Positions 14,255 to 30,627 of a stretch of 32,102 bases of DNA are shown piece by piece. The first letter of the stretch is position 1. Every line of letters begins with the position of its first letter. Source of the stretch: an uncultured Chitinophagales bacterium (GTDB lineage: Bacteria > Bacteroidota > Bacteroidia > Chitinophagales > JAHDHT01); NCBI GenBank assembly GCA_938023075.1, contig CALHDG010000040.1, forward strand, positions 1 through 32,102, written 5' to 3'. Position numbers and translations under genes: made by a program. A model generated the notes under the pieces. The model saw only the letters and a list, made by a program, of their open reading frames with translations. It searched no databases and had not been told where the DNA came from.

Positions 14255-15160
14255 TTATAATTTTTCGGCTATTCTTAATTTGGCACTTCTTGCTCTGGGG
14301 TTTTCTGTAATTTCCACCTCAGATGGTAAGATGATTTTTCTATTGATTGCTTTTAAAGGTTTGGTAATTTTTCCATAAAAATCTTTTTGAATTACTCCCT
14401 CAGTATTACCCGAGCGAATGAAATTTTTCACAATTCTATCTTCGAGAGAATGATAGGACATCACGACCAACCGTCCACCAGTCACCAATAGTTCTAAACT
14501 TTGTTTGAGCATTTCTTTTAATGCAGTTAACTCTCCATTCACTTCAATACGAATAGCCTGAAACAATTGCGCCAGGTAACGGTTTCGTTTCCCTTTTATC
14601 CAAGGTTCGATGGTTGCAATTAGTTCTTGTGTTGTGTTTATGGTTTGTGCTTTTCGTTTTTCGCACAATACACTTGCCAGCTTTCGGGCATTGTTTAACT
14701 CTCCGTAGTAGTAAAAAATATCAGCCAATTGTTTTTGATCGTACTCATTAACTACTTGTTGTGCTGTTAAGTTTTGTTCTTGGCTCATCCGCATATCCAA
14801 ATCTGCATTAAATCGGGTAGCAAAACCACGCTCTTCATTATTTAACTGATAAGAAGAAATGCCTAAATCTGCTAACACTCCATGAACTTGTGTAGTCTGA
14901 TGTAATCGCAAAAACTTTTGAAGATGTTTAAAATTATGAGCAACGAAATGAAAGCGCGGATCGGTTATTAAATTTTGTTGAGCAGCTTCGTCTTGATCAA
15001 AAGCAAACAATTTTCCATTGTCATTCAGTTGATTTAAAATAGCTTTACTATGTCCGCCACCACCAAAAGTTACATCAACATAAGTACCGTTTGGTTTTAT
15101 ATTTAAACCAGCCATACACTGCTGTAGCATTACGGGTATGTGATATATATCTGCCACCAT
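14255..15160 (-). CDS. rsmH: 16S rRNA (cytosine(1402)-N(4))-methyltransferase RsmH (MraW)
   Basis: RsmH methylates N4 of C1402 in 16S rRNA, tuning the ribosomal P site, and uses S-adenosylmethionine. The SAM-binding motif DVTFGGGGHS is at about 29-38. GVLADLGISSYQL, FATRFNADLDMRM and the late VVMSYHSLEDRIVKNF motif are all characteristic. The length (301 aa) is normal. It is the second gene of the dcw cluster; its start overlaps the mraZ stop by one base (TAATG). Confidence 0.97.
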   Translation of the reverse strand: MVADIYHIPVMLQQCMAGLNIKPNGTYVDVTFGGGGHSKAILNQLNDNGKLFAFDQDEAAQQNLITDPRFHFVAHNFKHLQKFLRLHQTTQVHGVLADLGISSYQLNNEERGFATRFNADLDMRMSQEQNLTAQQVVNEYDQKQLADIFYYYGELNNARKLASVLCEKRKAQTINTTQELIATIEPWIKGKRNRYLAQLFQAIRIEVNGELTALKEMLKQSLELLVTGGRLVVMSYHSLEDRIVKNFIRSGNTEGVIQKDFYGKITKPLKAINRKIILPSEVEITENPRARSAKLRIAEKL

Positions 15161-15648
15161 TAAGCATCTTCATTTATTTTGTTTACTGGCTCCTCAATAA
15201 AGCCATTGGCAAATAGAGCTTTTGCAGCTTCTTCAAAGCTTTTTTCGGTATTCTGTATATACTTATCAAACTCCGGCTTCGCCCAAAGCACCAAGCTTTC
15301 TCCTACTCCTTGTACAATAAGCTCGCCTCCTTTCTCTGCTTTCAATAATTCTAATATTCTTGCAGAAAGTACCACTCTATCATTATCATCAATTTTTAAA
15401 TCGACTGCATTATTGAAGAAGTGAGTTGCAAAAACACTGTAATTCGAATCAAATGGATTTTTTTTACTTTCAATGAACTTGACCATCTTTTCCCACTTGG
15501 GTTTGGTGTCAAGATAAAACACGCCATCCAAGCCTTTATAGAAATAGAGTTTTCTATAATCGGCAATCAACTCTTTGAACCGGGTTGGAATTTTGAGCCG
15601 GTTTTTGGAGTCCATTTTGGTTTCTATGGTTCCGAAAGCGGTAAACAT
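15160..15648 (-). CDS. mraZ: Transcriptional regulator MraZ
   Basis: MraZ is a DNA-binding protein of the AbrB/SpoVT fold that represses its own dcw operon in the bacteria where it has been studied. Two copies of the swapped-hairpin motif are visible: DSKNRLKIPTRF near the N-terminus and DDNDRVVLSARILE in the middle. The C-terminus is somewhat long (162 aa against about 145-150), ending in an acidic tail. It is the promoter-proximal gene of the cluster. Three GTGG boxes with exact 10-bp spacing lie 22-46 nt upstream of the start, matching the known kind of MraZ operator and indicating autoregulation. Confidence 0.95.
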   Translation of the reverse strand: MFTAFGTIETKMDSKNRLKIPTRFKELIADYRKLYFYKGLDGVFYLDTKPKWEKMVKFIESKKNPFDSNYSVFATHFFNNAVDLKIDDNDRVVLSARILELLKAEKGGELIVQGVGESLVLWAKPEFDKYIQNTEKSFEEAAKALFANGFIEEPVNKINEDA

Positions 15649-15716: not shown

Positions 15717-16031
15717 GTTTTGCAATTTTTATGAGTATTTTGGTGTAAACATGTGCTAAACAGCCTATTTTAGATGTGAATAAGCGTTAATTGTTCTATA
15801 TTAAATTGAACAAATATTTTCAAGATAGTGGACTAATTTCCCCAAATAACTGAAATAGTGGTGTCGTTCCAAAATTTGAAACTTTATAATCAGACTTGTT
15901 TTCGCTTTACTGAAACTTTGTTCTAAATCTTAAAATAATTTCATCATACTGCAAATTGTTTATATTCTTATGTTATTAACCTGTTGGCTATACATTTGGA
16001 ATGTATTTAAAAAGTGATGAAGTTGGAAGTT

Positions 16032-16147
16032 TAGCCCCGATAACAGTGGTTATGCTGCTTGAAGCGTTTGCCCTTGTGCGGTGGCGCAGCATTTGAACGG
16101 ATAGCGGGTAGCCCGTTTCTAAATGGTTTCCACTGTTTCGCTTCTAA
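16032..16147 (+). repeat. Dispersed structured element, copy A
   Basis: This ~116-bp stretch recurs at 27303-27417 with the same order of conserved blocks: TAGCCCCGAT, CAGTGGTTATGCTGC, GCAGCATTTGAACGG, AGCGGG, and TGTTTCGCTTCTAA at the end. ATGCTGC (16052-16058) pairs perfectly with GCAGCAT (16086-16092), enclosing a loop that differs between copies. CCCG (16036-16039) can pair with CGGG (16105-16108). Conserved stem and flanks with a variable loop suggest a structured RNA or DNA element. From memory, elements with AGCCC..GAT...GCGG...CGGAAAGCGGG cores are frequent in Bacteroidota intergenic DNA and may match the Rfam Flavo-1 motif; I could not verify that. Confidence 0.7.
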
Positions 16148-16201
16148 AAAATATAGTTGTTTATATTCAAGATTAATATATATTTATCATAGTGATTTCA
16201 T

Positions 16202-16987
16202 TTACTCTTTATTGTACCAATACACCGAAGTTTGAAAGTCTGCTTCCCGAAAACCGAAGCTTTTATAAATATCCAAAGCATGATAAGAGGGTTCAGCAGC
16301 AATAACCAATTGTTGTAATTGCTGAAATGCAATATGGCAGATATAATTAATTAAAGTTTTACAAATACCTTGTCGGCGATAAGCGGCTTTGGTTAGTACA
16401 CTTTGAAACCGACCGATACCTTGTTGATGAAACAAGCCGGCAGCGGCTACTAATTCGTTATCAAGGTAAGCTCCATAAAAATTACCGTTTTTCTGCTGGT
16501 TTAATTGTTGATATAACTTTGCCCTTCCTTGCATAAATTGCCGGTATGAGGTAGCTTCAAAGCCGTTAGGTTTTTCTTCGCATTCTAAATCAATCCATTG
16601 TTGCCAATCTGCTTTGGTACTAAATGAACGAATGTTTAGGTCTTCATTTTTTTGCTTTAAACGAATGAAATTGGTTGGGCTAGCAGCCAAAACTGAAATC
16701 AATTGCAAGGTATAGCCTGTTTGAAGAAATGATGAAAGATGCTCTTTTACTTTACCCGACCAGCAAAAGGTAAAATGCCTGATGCGTTCATCAGAAAAAT
16801 GGCTTTTAAATTGTTTTTCTAATTTGGCTTTTTTAAAATTTTCAGGCATTTGTTTAAGTAACAAGAAATTACCATAATAAAAATAAGGTTCATTAGGGCT
16901 TTTTACCACTATGTAATTAGGATAAGTTGTTATTTCTTTATCGGTTTCAAGAAAAAATAGATCGGTTAAATATCCTAGGTTAGTCAT
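16202..16987 (-). CDS. GNAT family N-acetyltransferase
   Basis: The 261-residue protein has a GNAT fold in its C-terminal half. A beta strand with QSVLTKAAYRRQGICKTL carries the acetyl-CoA pyrophosphate-binding R/Q-x-x-G-x-x motif (R204-R-Q-G-I-C209). It is followed by LVIAAEPSYHALDIYKSFGFRE, the usual motif-B ending. The N-terminal ~115 residues resemble no specific domain I recognise and may be a degenerate second GNAT lobe. The substrate is unknown; GNATs acetylate amines on small molecules or proteins. It stands alone between the dcw promoter region and a repeat-rich spacer. The start at 16987 is the only ATG giving the full N-terminus. Confidence 0.88.
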   Translation of the reverse strand: MTNLGYLTDLFFLETDKEITTYPNYIVVKSPNEPYFYYGNFLLLKQMPENFKKAKLEKQFKSHFSDERIRHFTFCWSGKVKEHLSSFLQTGYTLQLISVLAASPTNFIRLKQKNEDLNIRSFSTKADWQQWIDLECEEKPNGFEATSYRQFMQGRAKLYQQLNQQKNGNFYGAYLDNELVAAAGLFHQQGIGRFQSVLTKAAYRRQGICKTLINYICHIAFQQLQQLVIAAEPSYHALDIYKSFGFREADFQTSVYWYNKE

Positions 16988-17024
16988 GCTAACTTTTTTG
17001 CAAATTCAATTTCTGAATGGAAAA

Positions 17025-17063
17025 ATTCGAAATTCGAAATTCAGCGTTCGATATTCGATATTT
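17025..17063. repeat. Short tandem tract of ATTCGAA / ATATTCG units
   Basis: ATTCGAA occurs twice in tandem (17025-17038) and is followed by ATTCAGC and then GTTCGATATTCGATATTT (17046-17063). The last 18 bases recur with one mismatch at 23249-23266. Tracts of this kind are common between Bacteroidota genes; no function is implied. Confidence 0.6.
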
Positions 17064-17168
17064 TTTGATTGGTCATTTATTGAATAATGAATGTTGATTG
17101 ATTATTAATGTAGGTTCTACTACGATTTTTATTAGAAACCTTATTAAAAGTTTTTAAACTACCCCGAC

Positions 17169-17229
17169 CTTTTTCTTTAGAAAAAGCCCATCTACCGATG
17201 TGTCGGTACAGGCTCTTCAAAATTTGAAG
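17169..17229. repeat. Three consecutive palindromes
   Basis: The first is C-TTTTTC / GAAAAA-G (17169-17175 with 17180-17186, 4-nt loop). The second is TACCGA / TCGGTA (17193-17198 with 17203-17208, loop TGTG). The third is CTTCAAA / TTTGAAG around a central A (17215-17229). Three hairpins within 61 bp are unlikely by chance and may be the end of a lost mobile element or a small structured RNA. Confidence 0.5.
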
Positions 17230-17313
17230 GGGAACTAGTCCGGCTTTCCATACATAATAACATAAAACTGCATTCACTAAAATGATAGTATACCTTAATG
17301 TACAAGTAAATTA

Positions 17314-17331
17314 CATTCAATATATTGAATG
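17314..17331. repeat. 18-bp perfect palindrome
   Basis: CATTCAATA is followed immediately by its reverse complement TATTGAATG. It lies 15 bp beyond an unannotated stretch and 22 bp before the decayed element copy. It could be a dimeric regulator site or part of a repeat. Confidence 0.4.
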
Positions 17332-17353
17332 ACATTTAGATAGAATTGCAAAG

Positions 17354-17395
17354 GCATCCCGTTTACGAAAAGACGGCATTGAGCGGAAAGCAGGA
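17354..17395 (+). repeat. Decayed partial copy (C) of the dispersed element
   Basis: The block GCATT-GAGCGGAAAGCAGGA (17376-17395) matches the 3' half of copies A and B (GCATTTGAACGGAAAGCGGG). It is preceded by a short stem CCGT/ACGG (17359-17362 with 17373-17376) in place of the longer hairpin. The 5' AGCCCCGAT half is not recognisable, so this is read as a truncated relative. Confidence 0.45.
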
Positions 17396-17445
17396 CCACA
17401 CTTTATGCAAGCCCTCACTTTACGTTTCAACATTATTTTTATTCG

Positions 17446-18297
17446 TTACTGAAAATCTAACAACTCTATATCAAAAACAAGGGTTGAATTTGCCGGTATT
17501 TTTGGACCCTGTGCCCGGTTACCATAACCCAAGGGAGATGGAATAATCAGCTTACCCGAGCCCCCTTTTTGAAATTTTGGAATGCCTTCATCCCAACCTT
17601 TAATTACCCTGCCTTGCCCGAGTGGAAATTTAAAAGATTGATCTCTATCTTTTGAAGAATCGAACTTTGAACCATCTAATAAAGTACCGGTATAATGCAC
17701 TTCAACCCTTTGCCCTGGCTTAGGGAAACCACCTGTACCCGGCTTATCAATTATATAATATAAGCCACTTTCAGTTTTTTCTACTTTTAAATTATTATCA
17801 GCAATGTATTTATTAATTAAACCGGCTTCTTTGTCAAGCTGAGCGGCTTGAGCTGCGGCTGCTTCCCGCTGTTGTTCTTCGGCAGAAGAAAGTTTAATCA
17901 TTTTGATTACATATTCCAACTCGTCATCGGCTGTTAAAAAAGCTGGCAATTGATCTTTATAAACCGAGCTGGCTTTTACTACAAAATGGGCACTATCGCC
18001 GGCACTCATCATTAATAAACCATCATTTATAGCACCGTTAAATAAAGTAGGCTGAAATTTAAAATTTAGCGGCTGTGGATTAGTAAAGGTATTAAACAAA
18101 ACAGAATCATTTTTAGTTGCTTTATACAGCATGTTCAGGGTTAAAAAATCATCCATTTTAACGGTGCGCCCATCGGCATCTTTTACCATTTTATATTTCA
18201 TACCACTTTGGGTACTTTGGTAATTAGAATTATTGCAGTTGCTAAAAAATGCAAGCAATACTAATGCAAGCATACTGTTGGTAAACATTTTGATCAT
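17446..18297 (-). CDS. FKBP-type peptidyl-prolyl cis-trans isomerase, probable lipoprotein
   Basis: The 283-residue protein begins with a hydrophobic signal (about 4-18) followed by C21 in a relaxed FFSNC lipobox, so an acylated envelope protein is likely. Residues ~35-137 look like a degenerate FKBP fold (MDDFLTLNMLYKA, SAGDSAHFVV, LEYVIKMIKL). An Ala/Gln-rich helix (137-160) follows. Residues ~190-283 form a canonical FKBP domain with GQRVEVHYTGTLLDGSKFDSS, VIKGWDEGIP, and STLVFDIELLDF at the end. It would catalyse prolyl isomerisation of exported proteins. It starts 6 nt after the DHH phosphoesterase and is probably co-transcribed. A lipoprotein FKBP in a T9SS-bearing organism recalls GldI of gliding bacteria, but this assignment is tentative. 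Confidence 0.9.
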   Translation of the reverse strand: MIKMFTNSMLALVLLAFFSNCNNSNYQSTQSGMKYKMVKDADGRTVKMDDFLTLNMLYKATKNDSVLFNTFTNPQPLNFKFQPTLFNGAINDGLLMMSAGDSAHFVVKASSVYKDQLPAFLTADDELEYVIKMIKLSSAEEQQREAAAAQAAQLDKEAGLINKYIADNNLKVEKTESGLYYIIDKPGTGGFPKPGQRVEVHYTGTLLDGSKFDSSKDRDQSFKFPLGQGRVIKGWDEGIPKFQKGGSGKLIIPSPLGYGNRAQGPKIPANSTLVFDIELLDFQ

Positions 18298-27052: not shown

Positions 27053-27507
27053 TGGCTACTTATTTTTAAGTGTAAATTTACGATAAAAGTTGGGTAAGGC
27101 TGACATCTTTTTTAAAAAGGTGATAGCTAATTAATTAAATACTGAACGGAAAACATCATACAATCTATTCCACTTTCTTTTTTTAATTTAGATTGCTTTC
27201 ATTTTATTATCAGAACTCCTCTTTTAAAGATGCCATCTTTATCACAATTTTATTTATATTGCGTTAAGGAAAAATATATAAACCCGACCGACGCATTCAA
27301 AATAGCCCCGATTGCAGTGGTTATGCTGCCTGAAGTGTGGGCTTTGTCGCGTAGCCGCAGCATTTGAACGGAAAGCGGGCTGCCCCTTGGTAAACAGCCA
27401 AAATGTTTCGCTTCTAATCATTTAAAAAAAGGCATTTTATTGAGTTCGCTAAAAAAAACGACAAATAGAAACATCCGGCTTGTATCAAAACCAATTAATT
27501 AAAGTAT
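27053..27507. other. 455-bp divergent intergenic region (Uma2 gene and susC)
   Basis: The spacer separates the leftward Uma2 operon from the rightward susC and should contain both promoters. I found no perfect TAnnTTTG box on either strand; the nearest + strand match is TATATTGC near 27255. Copy B of the dispersed element (27303-27417) occupies its right half, 90 nt before the susC start. Confidence 0.5.
27303..27417 (+). repeat. Dispersed structured element, copy B
   Basis: This 115-bp copy matches 16032-16147 in block order and length. ATGCTGC (27323-27329) pairs with GCAGCAT (27357-27363), and CCCG (27307-27310) can pair with CGGG (27376-27379). The stem and the blocks CATTTGAACGGAAAGCGGG and TGTTTCGCTTCTAA are conserved, while the loop sequence differs. 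It lies in the leader or promoter region of susC in the same orientation. Confidence 0.7.
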
Positions 27508-30500
27508 ATGAAATTGAAATGGATATTGTTGATGGTGGGCTTGTTGGCAGGTCAAATCGTGCTGGCGCAACACAAAGTGTCGGGAACGATTACCGATGCC
27601 AAAACAGGCGATGCCTTAATTGGCGCAACCATTGTTGAAAAAGGAACATCGAATGGAACGACCACCAACTTAGATGGGAATTTTTCGCTGGAAGTGGCAG
27701 ATGAAAACGCAACACTAACCATCAGCTACGTAGGCTACAAAACGCAGGAAATGGCGGTAGCTGGTCAACAAAAATTAAGCCTTGCGATGGAAGAAGGCGA
27801 ATTTTTAGACGAAGTGGTGGTAACAGCTTTGGGCTTGTTAGAAAGGAAATCGAAGTTAACTTATGCAACCCAACGGATAGATTCGAAAGACCTTAATATG
27901 TCGAGAGTGGGTGATGCCGGGCAGCAACTCTCGGGGCAAGTGCCGGGTTTGGCAATTACTACAAGCAATGGTTCGGCGGTGCAATCGTCGCGGGTAATTT
28001 TAAGGGGTGAATCGTCGTTGAATGTGAACCGCAACCAACCGCTTTTGGTGGTAGATGGCGCGTTGATTTCTAACGAATATATTGGTATTGGCACCGATGC
28101 CCATACGGGTAGTTTACCCATTGATTACGGCAACTCATTAACTGATTTAAACCCGGATGATTTTGAAGATATTACAGTATTGAAAGGTCCGAAAGCAGCT
28201 GCTTTATATGGCTCGCGCGCTTCAAATGGGGTGTTGGTTATCCGCACCAAATCGGGCAAGCAAAAGCAAGGTTTGGGGGTGGAGTTTTCTACCGGTGCTG
28301 CCTTTGATGTAGTGAACCAATTTTGGGATGAGCAGTTTGAGTATGGCGGTGGCGGCTACGATTCTGCTTCTGATTTGTATAACCAATTCCGTTCAGATTG
28401 GGGTGGCAATTTTGGTCCAAGAACCGATGGAAGTTCGGTTGCACAATCTACCCCTACAGACCCGTCACCGGATGCGACGGCATTTCAGCAATTGGCTGAT
28501 AGACAAGGTTTTTTCGATATGGGCTCGGGCTTTAACAACAATGTGGCATTGTCGTTTGCCAACGATAATATTTGGGGACGTTTGTCGGTGGGCAACTTAA
28601 CTAAACAAGGCATCATACCCAATACAGCATACCAAAAAAATAATGTGAGTTTACGTTTAGGTACCGATGTAACCAATCGTTTACGTTTAGATTTTTCGGG
28701 AAATTATATCACCTCCCATTCGGATAATGTGCCTGAAATTGGCTATGCCTTTGGCGAAAGTTTGATGTTCCAAATGTTGTGGGTGATGAAAAATTTTGAT
28801 TTGGATGCTTACCAGGATTATTGGCTACCGGGTCAACAATATCAACAGCAAAATTATTTTTTAAGTTGGGGGGTCAATCCATACTTATTAATAAATGAAA
28901 ATTTGAACGGCTTTAACCACAACCGTACCTTCGGCAATGTAAAAGCCACTTACCAATTTTCGGATAATTTATCCATTTTTGCCCGGCTTTCCAGAGATGG
29001 GTATGATGATTTGCGGACATCGCGCAAAGCACCCGGTCAACCAACTGTTCCTTTTGGAAGGTATCGCGAGCAAGATGTAAGCCTCACCGAAACCAATGCC
29101 GATGTGTATTTAACTTACACGCAAAATTTTTCGGATGCCATAGAGTTTGAAGGCAATCTTGGTGGCAACTTATTTAATCAAACCATTTTTAATAAAGTAG
29201 CCGAAACGAGGAACTTAGCCATACCCGGCATTTACAGTTTGGGCAATGCGGGCGACGTTCCTTTGGTAGACCAATACAATGCACAAAAGAAAATCAACAG
29301 CGTATACGGAGCTTTAAAATTTGGTTTTAATGAAATGTTGTATGTTGATGTAACGGCGCGAAATGATTGGTCTTCTACTTTGCCAGCTGATAACAATTCT
29401 TACTTTTATCCTTCCGTTGGTTTGAGTGCTATCTTATCAAAAATGATGGATATGCCTGAGGCGATTTCTACGGCAAGATTGCGAGCAAGCTATGCAGAAA
29501 CAGGCAACGATACCGACCCATTTTTAACTAACCGAGTGTTTGCTACCGGCTTATTGCCCGGCTCTATTTCTAACTCTAATTTGTTAGTGAACCCCGAGTT
29601 GAGACCGGAAAGAACTTCGGCAATTGAAATTGGTTTGGACTTGGATTTGTTTGAATATCGTTTCGGACTTTCAGCCGATTATTATCAAAACACCACGCAA
29701 GACCAAATTTTAAGAGCCGATATTTCGCATGCTTCCGGTGCCACGGCTAAGTTGATTAATGCAGGTAAGATAAACAGTTCGGGCGTTGAAATATTAGCGA
29801 ATGTTAAACCAATAGTGAACAGTAATTTTAACTGGAATTCGATGTTTAACTGGCAAACCAACCAAGCAAAAGTAGTTGAATTAGAAGAAGGTGTAGAGAC
29901 CTTTATTATTGCACAAGGGCCAGAAGGGGCAACTATTGAAGCTCGTCCCGGCGGATTAATGGGCGATATTTATGGAAGAGGTTTTGCCCGCTCACCCGAC
30001 GGACAAATTATATACGACACGGGAACCGGTATTGCGATCCCTCAAACTGCTAACGAAAAAATTGTGGTCGGCAATTATAATCCGGATTGGACTTTGGGTT
30101 GGATAAATTCTTTTAATTACAAAGCTTTAAATTTGAGGTTTCAGTTAGATTACCGGCAGGGTGGTGATTTTTATTCCTTAACCGGTTCGCAGTTGTACCG
30201 TTCAGGTTCGGTTACTGAAACTTTAGAATATCGCGAAAAAGATATTACGCCAGTGGGTGTAGTTGAAAATGAGGATGGCACTTTCAGCACCAATACAGTT
30301 ACTTCTCCGGGTTATGATTATTATAGAAATTATTGGCTAAGAAGTAATATTGAAGCCAACACTTACGATGCTACTTTTTTAAAGCTAAGAGAAATTGCTT
30401 TGGGCGTTAATCTGTCAGATGTCATCAAGAATACAGCTCCGGTTTTTCAAAATGTGCAACTGTCTGTTTTTGGTAGAAATTTATTTACGTGGACGAAGAC

Positions 30501-30627
30501 CGATTTTGTGCGCCACTTCGACCCTGAGGTAATGACCTTTGCTGGTGGCTCGTACATTCGTGGTTTTGAAACTGGTCAGTTGCCTGGCACGGCTACCTTT
30601 GGTTTTAATTTGAAGGTGGGTTTGTAG
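27508..30627 (+). CDS. SusC/RagA-family TonB-linked outer membrane transporter
   Basis: The 1039-residue protein has a signal peptide (1-20, ending VLAQ). A carboxypeptidase-regulatory-like domain (about 23-110, HKVSGTITDAKTGDALIGAT through TISYVGYKTQE) and the linker motif EVVVTALG follow. The plug (VPGLAITTSNGS, the LLVVDGALIS segment, VLKGPKAAALYGSRASNGVL) leads into a long 22-stranded barrel ending in Leu (FGFNLKVGL). SusC proteins form a TonB-driven gated pore with a SusD lipoprotein lid, importing glycans or peptides. The substrate is not predictable; no glycoside hydrolase or regulator is nearby in the window. GC content is visibly higher than in the toxin-antitoxin genes that follow. 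Confidence 0.96.
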   Translation: MKLKWILLMVGLLAGQIVLAQHKVSGTITDAKTGDALIGATIVEKGTSNGTTTNLDGNFSLEVADENATLTISYVGYKTQEMAVAGQQKLSLAMEEGEFLDEVVVTALGLLERKSKLTYATQRIDSKDLNMSRVGDAGQQLSGQVPGLAITTSNGSAVQSSRVILRGESSLNVNRNQPLLVVDGALISNEYIGIGTDAHTGSLPIDYGNSLTDLNPDDFEDITVLKGPKAAALYGSRASNGVLVIRTKSGKQKQGLGVEFSTGAAFDVVNQFWDEQFEYGGGGYDSASDLYNQFRSDWGGNFGPRTDGSSVAQSTPTDPSPDATAFQQLADRQGFFDMGSGFNNNVALSFANDNIWGRLSVGNLTKQGIIPNTAYQKNNVSLRLGTDVTNRLRLDFSGNYITSHSDNVPEIGYAFGESLMFQMLWVMKNFDLDAYQDYWLPGQQYQQQNYFLSWGVNPYLLINENLNGFNHNRTFGNVKATYQFSDNLSIFARLSRDGYDDLRTSRKAPGQPTVPFGRYREQDVSLTETNADVYLTYTQNFSDAIEFEGNLGGNLFNQTIFNKVAETRNLAIPGIYSLGNAGDVPLVDQYNAQKKINSVYGALKFGFNEMLYVDVTARNDWSSTLPADNNSYFYPSVGLSAILSKMMDMPEAISTARLRASYAETGNDTDPFLTNRVFATGLLPGSISNSNLLVNPELRPERTSAIEIGLDLDLFEYRFGLSADYYQNTTQDQILRADISHASGATAKLINAGKINSSGVEILANVKPIVNSNFNWNSMFNWQTNQAKVVELEEGVETFIIAQGPEGATIEARPGGLMGDIYGRGFARSPDGQIIYDTGTGIAIPQTANEKIVVGNYNPDWTLGWINSFNYKALNLRFQLDYRQGGDFYSLTGSQLYRSGSVTETLEYREKDITPVGVVENEDGTFSTNTVTSPGYDYYRNYWLRSNIEANTYDATFLKLREIALGVNLSDVIKNTAPVFQNVQLSVFGRNLFTWTKTDFVRHFDPEVMTFAGGSYIRGFETGQLPGTATFGFNLKVGL

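Follow-up and report, generated by a model that had tools for sequence, protein, structure and literature searches.

The repeat found in the window (the whole stretch of 32,102 nucleotides analysed here, from an uncultured Chitinophagales bacterium) represents, judged by its sequence, a divergent Flavo-1 lineage (Rfam RF01705) of high copy number. In our preferred reading, to which we assign a probability of roughly 0.5, it is an intergenic cis repeat of about 150 nt whose structure is under selection, which sits at the borders of transcription units and which is partly mobile. The observations behind this reading are the family and its copy number, the covariation of its stem, carriage of some copies in a MITE, site-specific insertions into others, and persistence at one orthologous site with turnover of the apical hairpin.

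Three copies occur in the window, all on the plus strand. An ungapped alignment of 92 nt between the first two (16032-16123 and 27303-27394) shows 78% identity; the ATGCTGC/GCAGCAT stem is common to both and the enclosed loop differs, as the first-pass annotation had described. With a model of 154 positions, trained on 80 copies of the genome with both window copies among them, these matches extend to 16001-16155 (136 bits, conserved core 16032-16112) and 27272-27425 (134 bits), which puts the length of the element at about 150 nt instead of the 115 bp given at first. The genes next to copy 1 are both on the minus strand: mraZ (15160-15648) and, past the 3' edge of the copy, a gene for a GNAT acetyltransferase (16202-16987), whose antisense stop codon is 46 nt away from that edge. 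Copy 2 lies in the divergent gap between an Uma2 gene (minus strand) and a SusC-like gene with CarbopepD_reg_2 and TonB plug domains (27508-30627, plus strand). This context is roughly the one noted initially; a special role at susC or dcw finds no support, copy 1 being antisense to mraZ at a distance of 384 nt. The third copy is weak (nhmmer match 17371-17433, E 5e-4; absent from the covariance-model listing at E<=1). Its right part spans 17346-17441, with outer edges set by eye, and ends 5-12 nt from the stop codon of an antisense FKBP-type peptidyl-prolyl isomerase gene (17446-18297, minus strand). It had been taken for a truncated copy; it is real, and on sequence grounds it is a split copy instead of a simple truncation, interrupted by an insert of ~219 bp whose positions 51-167 remain at 17008-17123 (plus strand), the right part of the copy running to about 17441. 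By eye, the segment from ~17305 to 17345 looks like the end of this insert; 17124-17300 is a stretch between the two insert parts inside the split copy.

In the genome (6.12 Mb, 288 contigs) the core pattern occurs at 341 places and the reversed pattern at 1, so the dispersed repeat is real and not due to chance. The RF01705 covariance search places at least 146 copies, at least 72 of them over the gathering cut-off of 42 bits, both counts being lower bounds with 150 of 1826 candidates scored. Copies 1 and 2 match RF01705 at 30.1 and 27.2 bits, under this cut-off, while 72 of the 146 listed places pass it, and we therefore speak of a divergent Flavo-1-like lineage; the link to Flavo-1 suspected from the window was right in kind. 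A profile search (nhmmer) returned 180 matches, 12 of which were set aside as partial. Among the 168 core-spanning matches, 146 reached both model edges with enough flank and were used for counts of terminal inverted repeats (TIRs) and gene context; the gene-context test covers the 134 that are flanked by a gene on either side. A coding repeat was rejected, as element lengths vary by single bases and the frames close (by eye).

With Flavo-1 the element shares the AGCCC.GAT / GCGGA.AGCGGG core and nested pairs with internal loops: the consensus pairs CCG/CGG, UU/AA and GC/GC and the loops between them are present in the alignment of the window copies. Both are intergenic, multi-copy and from Bacteroidota. 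The element differs in an outer AGC:GCT helix and a 3' linker of ~31 nt, which fall outside the Rfam pairs, in an apical base that is mostly TTATGC...GCATTTGA instead of UCCUUUU, and in the carriage of some genome copies within a MITE. Within the order, 9 of 59 genomes have RF01705 matches at E<=1e-10; within the class, 6 of 247 genomes have them at E<=3e-16, a strict threshold that does not measure prevalence. An IspG fragment matches mostly Bacteroidota and some Ignavibacteria, at identities of up to 80% (79% to an uncultured Chitinophagales MAG), which by itself makes a placement in Bacteroidota safe and no finer one. In the comparison set the genus is represented by one genome and the family by two. 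In the second of the family (G001), 6 of 7 pattern matches show a core that is related to the present one yet distinct (by eye), AGCCC.GAT..AATGGAAACC..GGCTGACC.GCGGG on contigs 9, 216, 228, 242, 255 and 385, perhaps a further variant of the motif.

The structure is supported by covariation. Information content goes up at about -31 before AGCCC and down at about +43 after GCGGG. Within these limits AGC:GCT and CCCG:CGGG are followed by UU:AA and GC:GC, set apart by fixed purine-rich internal loops, and then by a freely changing apical hairpin. In 80 aligned copies (chosen from a k-mer-diverse set of 125 of the 146, mostly stand-alone, with a few of odd length omitted) the 18-pair stem is 98.8% standard-paired and 15 of the 18 pairs are changed on both sides. 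Compensatory double-change cells number 226; shuffled alignments give 55.6, and slid controls, in which pairing drops to 28-46%, give no more than 47. The outer AGC:GCT helix covaries as well (GC 70 to AU 10; CG 76 to AU 4) and is also visible, with a short linker, in other families of the order. An alternative outer stem, GAAG..CGAAG with TTTCGCTTC (RNAalifold, RIBOSUM scoring), was dropped because covariation favours AGC:GCT on overlapping 3' letters. Single-sequence folding was likewise dropped as evidence for structure: for copies 1 and 2 the z values are -1.27 and -0.63 (plus strand, not significant) and -1.67 and -0.39 (minus) as RNA, and -1.76 and -0.83 (plus) and -2.42 and -0.45 (minus) as DNA. 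Three of the four strands are non-significant as RNA or DNA, and no minimum-energy fold was matched with the covarying stem.

We note that this conserved structure is compatible with more than one kind of molecule. One alternative is a family of transcribed structured RNAs, the category under which Rfam lists Flavo-1, each with its own promoter, acting as an sRNA or antisense to the 3' end of a convergent neighbour; we regard it as possible, with the odds clearly against it. It gains from the wobble tolerance of the plus strand: among 2537 cells in the 146 copies 18 are G.T and 2 are A.C (p 0.0004; apical pairs of the UCC-type subfamily omitted, because they are shifted), which identifies the plus strand as the folded one. 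The rarity of wobble stands against it: G.T makes up 0.7% here, compared to 11.8% G.U (28 of 237 pairs) in a control of 11 tRNAs from all loci examined (Fisher p 2e-19). The structured RNA proposed in the first-pass annotation is supported as to structure, by the covariation, and is unestablished as to RNA, in view of the rare wobble, of the mixed orientation of copies and of a published F. psychrophilum transcriptome. In the sections consulted of the respective papers, Flavo-1 is listed as 'RNA? y, cis-reg n' (PMC2864571); in F. psychrophilum its matches lie sense and antisense, often outside transcribed regions (PMC9723704), and the candidate ncRNAs of F. columnare have no Rfam match (PMC5395568). 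The consulted parts of the Flavo-1 / RF01705 literature, which include PMC9029176 and PMC3733652, give no function and do not establish the motif as a transcribed RNA.

Gene context in this genome (G000; simple ORF calling, >=100 codons) bears on the same alternative. Of 134 copies, 95 are followed on their 3' side by an antisense gene, a share that is 45.5% for random intergenic positions (p 3e-9); in tandem gaps 50 copies are antisense and 18 sense (p 1e-4). Among 51 stand-alone copies with an antisense 3' gene, 37 end no more than 50 nt from its stop codon; where stand-alone copies face a sense start, 1 of 21 comes as close to it. Window copies 1 and 3 follow this antisense-stop rule; copy 2, in its divergent gap, does not. 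A transcribed RNA would suit such an edge facing antisense stop codons, and would also suit the promoter-like site that closely precedes the conserved 5' edge in 8 of 64 stand-alone copies (TAnnTTTG or TAnnnTTTG, at -42/-43 relative to AGCCC); these sites are mostly confined to one subfamily of related copies (by eye), which weakens the argument. A cis-regulatory leader or riboswitch was rejected: 39 of 134 copies precede a gene in sense, and no fixed sense-leader position at one gene class is seen.

Orthologous sites indicate what is kept over time. In two genomes of another family (G058 and G045) an orthologous copy lies 16 nt past the stop codon of an antisense gene; the flanking genes are 91-93% identical, the core is nearly unchanged and the adjoining gap cannot be aligned. 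In genus g102 ("Flavobacterium-like", an inferred label) the element is found just upstream of the same small gene in 8 of 28 loci examined, and upstream of another gene in L328 and L329. Mean identity among the eight copies is 0.89 in the core, 0.47 upstream, 0.49 in the spacer and 0.51 in the apical hairpin; the core value is biased upward, as the search pattern itself fixes much of the core, and a looser pattern gave the same eight places. The first 600 bases of the small gene match at 0.74 in six of the g102 loci. The apical hairpin is replaced among these copies yet always self-complementary, with a long unrelated arm in L319. By eye, the eight copies lie upstream of a promoter-like site and not clearly within a transcript, a further point against a transcribed RNA. 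Gene context in g102 differs (AS 7, AA 3, SA 2, SS 1; n=13), and the antisense-stop rule is therefore not general. L170/L317 has a disrupted copy (by eye), and in L309 and L320 most of the gene is matched with no element.

A second alternative sees in the repeat a miniature mobile element that is purely selfish and of no use to the host, and whose covariation would result from palindrome-perfecting template switches and recognition by a transposase. We consider it unlikely, though to be taken seriously. Presence at the same locus differs among species and hairpin types are common to copies at different sites (by eye), as this alternative would have it; the retention of the core at orthologous sites, where the intergenic DNA around it has been exchanged, argues in the opposite direction, as does the failure to obtain a clean empty site. 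The element is absent in ten relatives (L170-L179), which may reflect loss or rearrangement, as the site in G122 has no syntenic partner upstream. Gene conversion among copies could, as an alternative to selection, also be a source of alike cores with swapped arms.

Mobility itself is supported for a part of the family. Flank alignment identifies a unit of 246-254 bp (one of 239) that encloses the element and ends in GACAAGTTTATC...GATAAACTTGTC. Among the 146 copies, both TIRs are found in 40, one in 26 and none in 80; hence 66 copies are inside the MITE. The 40 copies with both TIRs show exact 8-bp flank duplications in five cases, 9 bp in one and 2 bp in three. Inverted repeats, unit length and the 8-bp duplications in some copies resemble those of TIR MITEs in general; the middle, which here is the Flavo-1 structure, differs. 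These units speak for a selfish element, against which stand the 80 copies without TIRs and the search for an autonomous parent, which found none. The non-autonomous mobile element suggested from the window is supported for the TIR-bearing subset, and the window copies belong to the 80. Ends similar to GACAAGTTTATC also occur away from Flavo-1 copies in L066, L070, L077, L084 and L089, possibly as other members of the MITE or its parent.

Other elements use the repeat as an insertion site. The ~219-bp insert is found within at least 13 copies, breaking them at CCCCGATT^ (GATT^); it has one orientation relative to the element wherever readable, and TTGCAGCGG resumes at its far end where intact. 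It lies in L031, L032, L034, L038, L040, L043, L061, L067, L068, L076, L089 and L091, and neighbours 4 of 4 left-only and at least 4 of 7 right-only partial matches, including that of the window. The insert is partly palindromic and occurs as a tandem pair in L034. At the same GATT^ base begins an IS110-family element (PF02371, PF01548) in L091, where the 3' non-coding side of the transposase gene (L091:55-1375) starts exactly at this position of the Flavo-1 copy. This suggests Flavo-1 as an IS110 target; for IS621, REP elements reportedly serve as target. In a third alternative Flavo-1 would be a folded-DNA recombination or landing site and not an RNA. Its core would be read as ssDNA or an extruded hairpin, its apical arm would be a cassette that copies exchange with one another, and GATT^ would be exploited by bridge-RNA (IS110) elements and by others. 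We hold this to be improbable, the least likely of the readings considered. In integron attC sites, too, the stem is conserved, the spacers are unpaired and the terminal structure varies; unlike these, the element occurs as single dispersed copies, and no cassette arrays were seen.

Y1 transposases (RAYT) as movers are unsupported, which also speaks against a selfish element. No intact copies were found by pattern near Y1 transposase genes in 35 loci (~1.5 kb on each side, several cut by contig ends), and a profile search of the nine Y1 loci of this genome gave L091 only. The latter is an apparent Y1-linked match, yet contains the IS110 gene and an IS200-like unit, which break the copy. REP/REPIN sequences with TnpAREP (RAYT) are alike in being short, high-copy, intergenic imperfect hairpins, often located past stop codons and used as targets of insertion sequences. 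The element differs in that the aligned copies, when read through, show no GT[AG]G foot, and in not flanking TnpAREP genes, beside which other hairpin repeats sit in this genome. TnpAREP-like proteins of 183 aa (L093, C233 near 19053) and 188 aa (L097, C216 near 11239) carry NHIH and YIHNNP/YIHYNP and resemble subclass 2.6 as given in the part of PMC6006769 consulted. Their genes adjoin repeated hairpins CCTCGTTTGTAACGAGG and CAAGTCTTTTCGACTTG, the first of which ends ~4 nt before the Flavo-1 5' edge in about five loci (L031, L033, L040, L048, L083). No replication-strand bias is seen (75 of 146 copies on the G-rich strand, a weak test), so the ssDNA-transposition route receives no help from it.

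The constant bulged core, the replaceable paired arm, the scarce wobble, the single folded strand and the placement at gene borders lead us to the preferred reading, in which the element works in cis and is recognised in its folded form. Selection would hold the plus strand in one bulged stem, and the element would act in cis as a folded single strand, its core read by a putative protein, at borders between transcription units; pairing would be the sole requirement on the apical arm. Spread would be partly as cargo of the TIR MITE, and the element may offer a safe landing site to the IS110 element and another site-specific element. As to the folded strand, ssDNA or a cruciform is somewhat more likely than RNA, since wobble is scarce and consistent transcription is lacking in the published data. 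Since 2010 Flavo-1 has figured as an orphan among the 'sRNA' families of Bacteroidota. The scarce wobble, the mixed orientation and the replacement of the apical arm around a constant core at one orthologous site make this label doubtful, and the outer helix, one spreading route (the MITE) and a repeated, base-exact insertion target are added to the description of the family. If the cis or DNA reading is true, annotating every match as an sRNA would be wrong.
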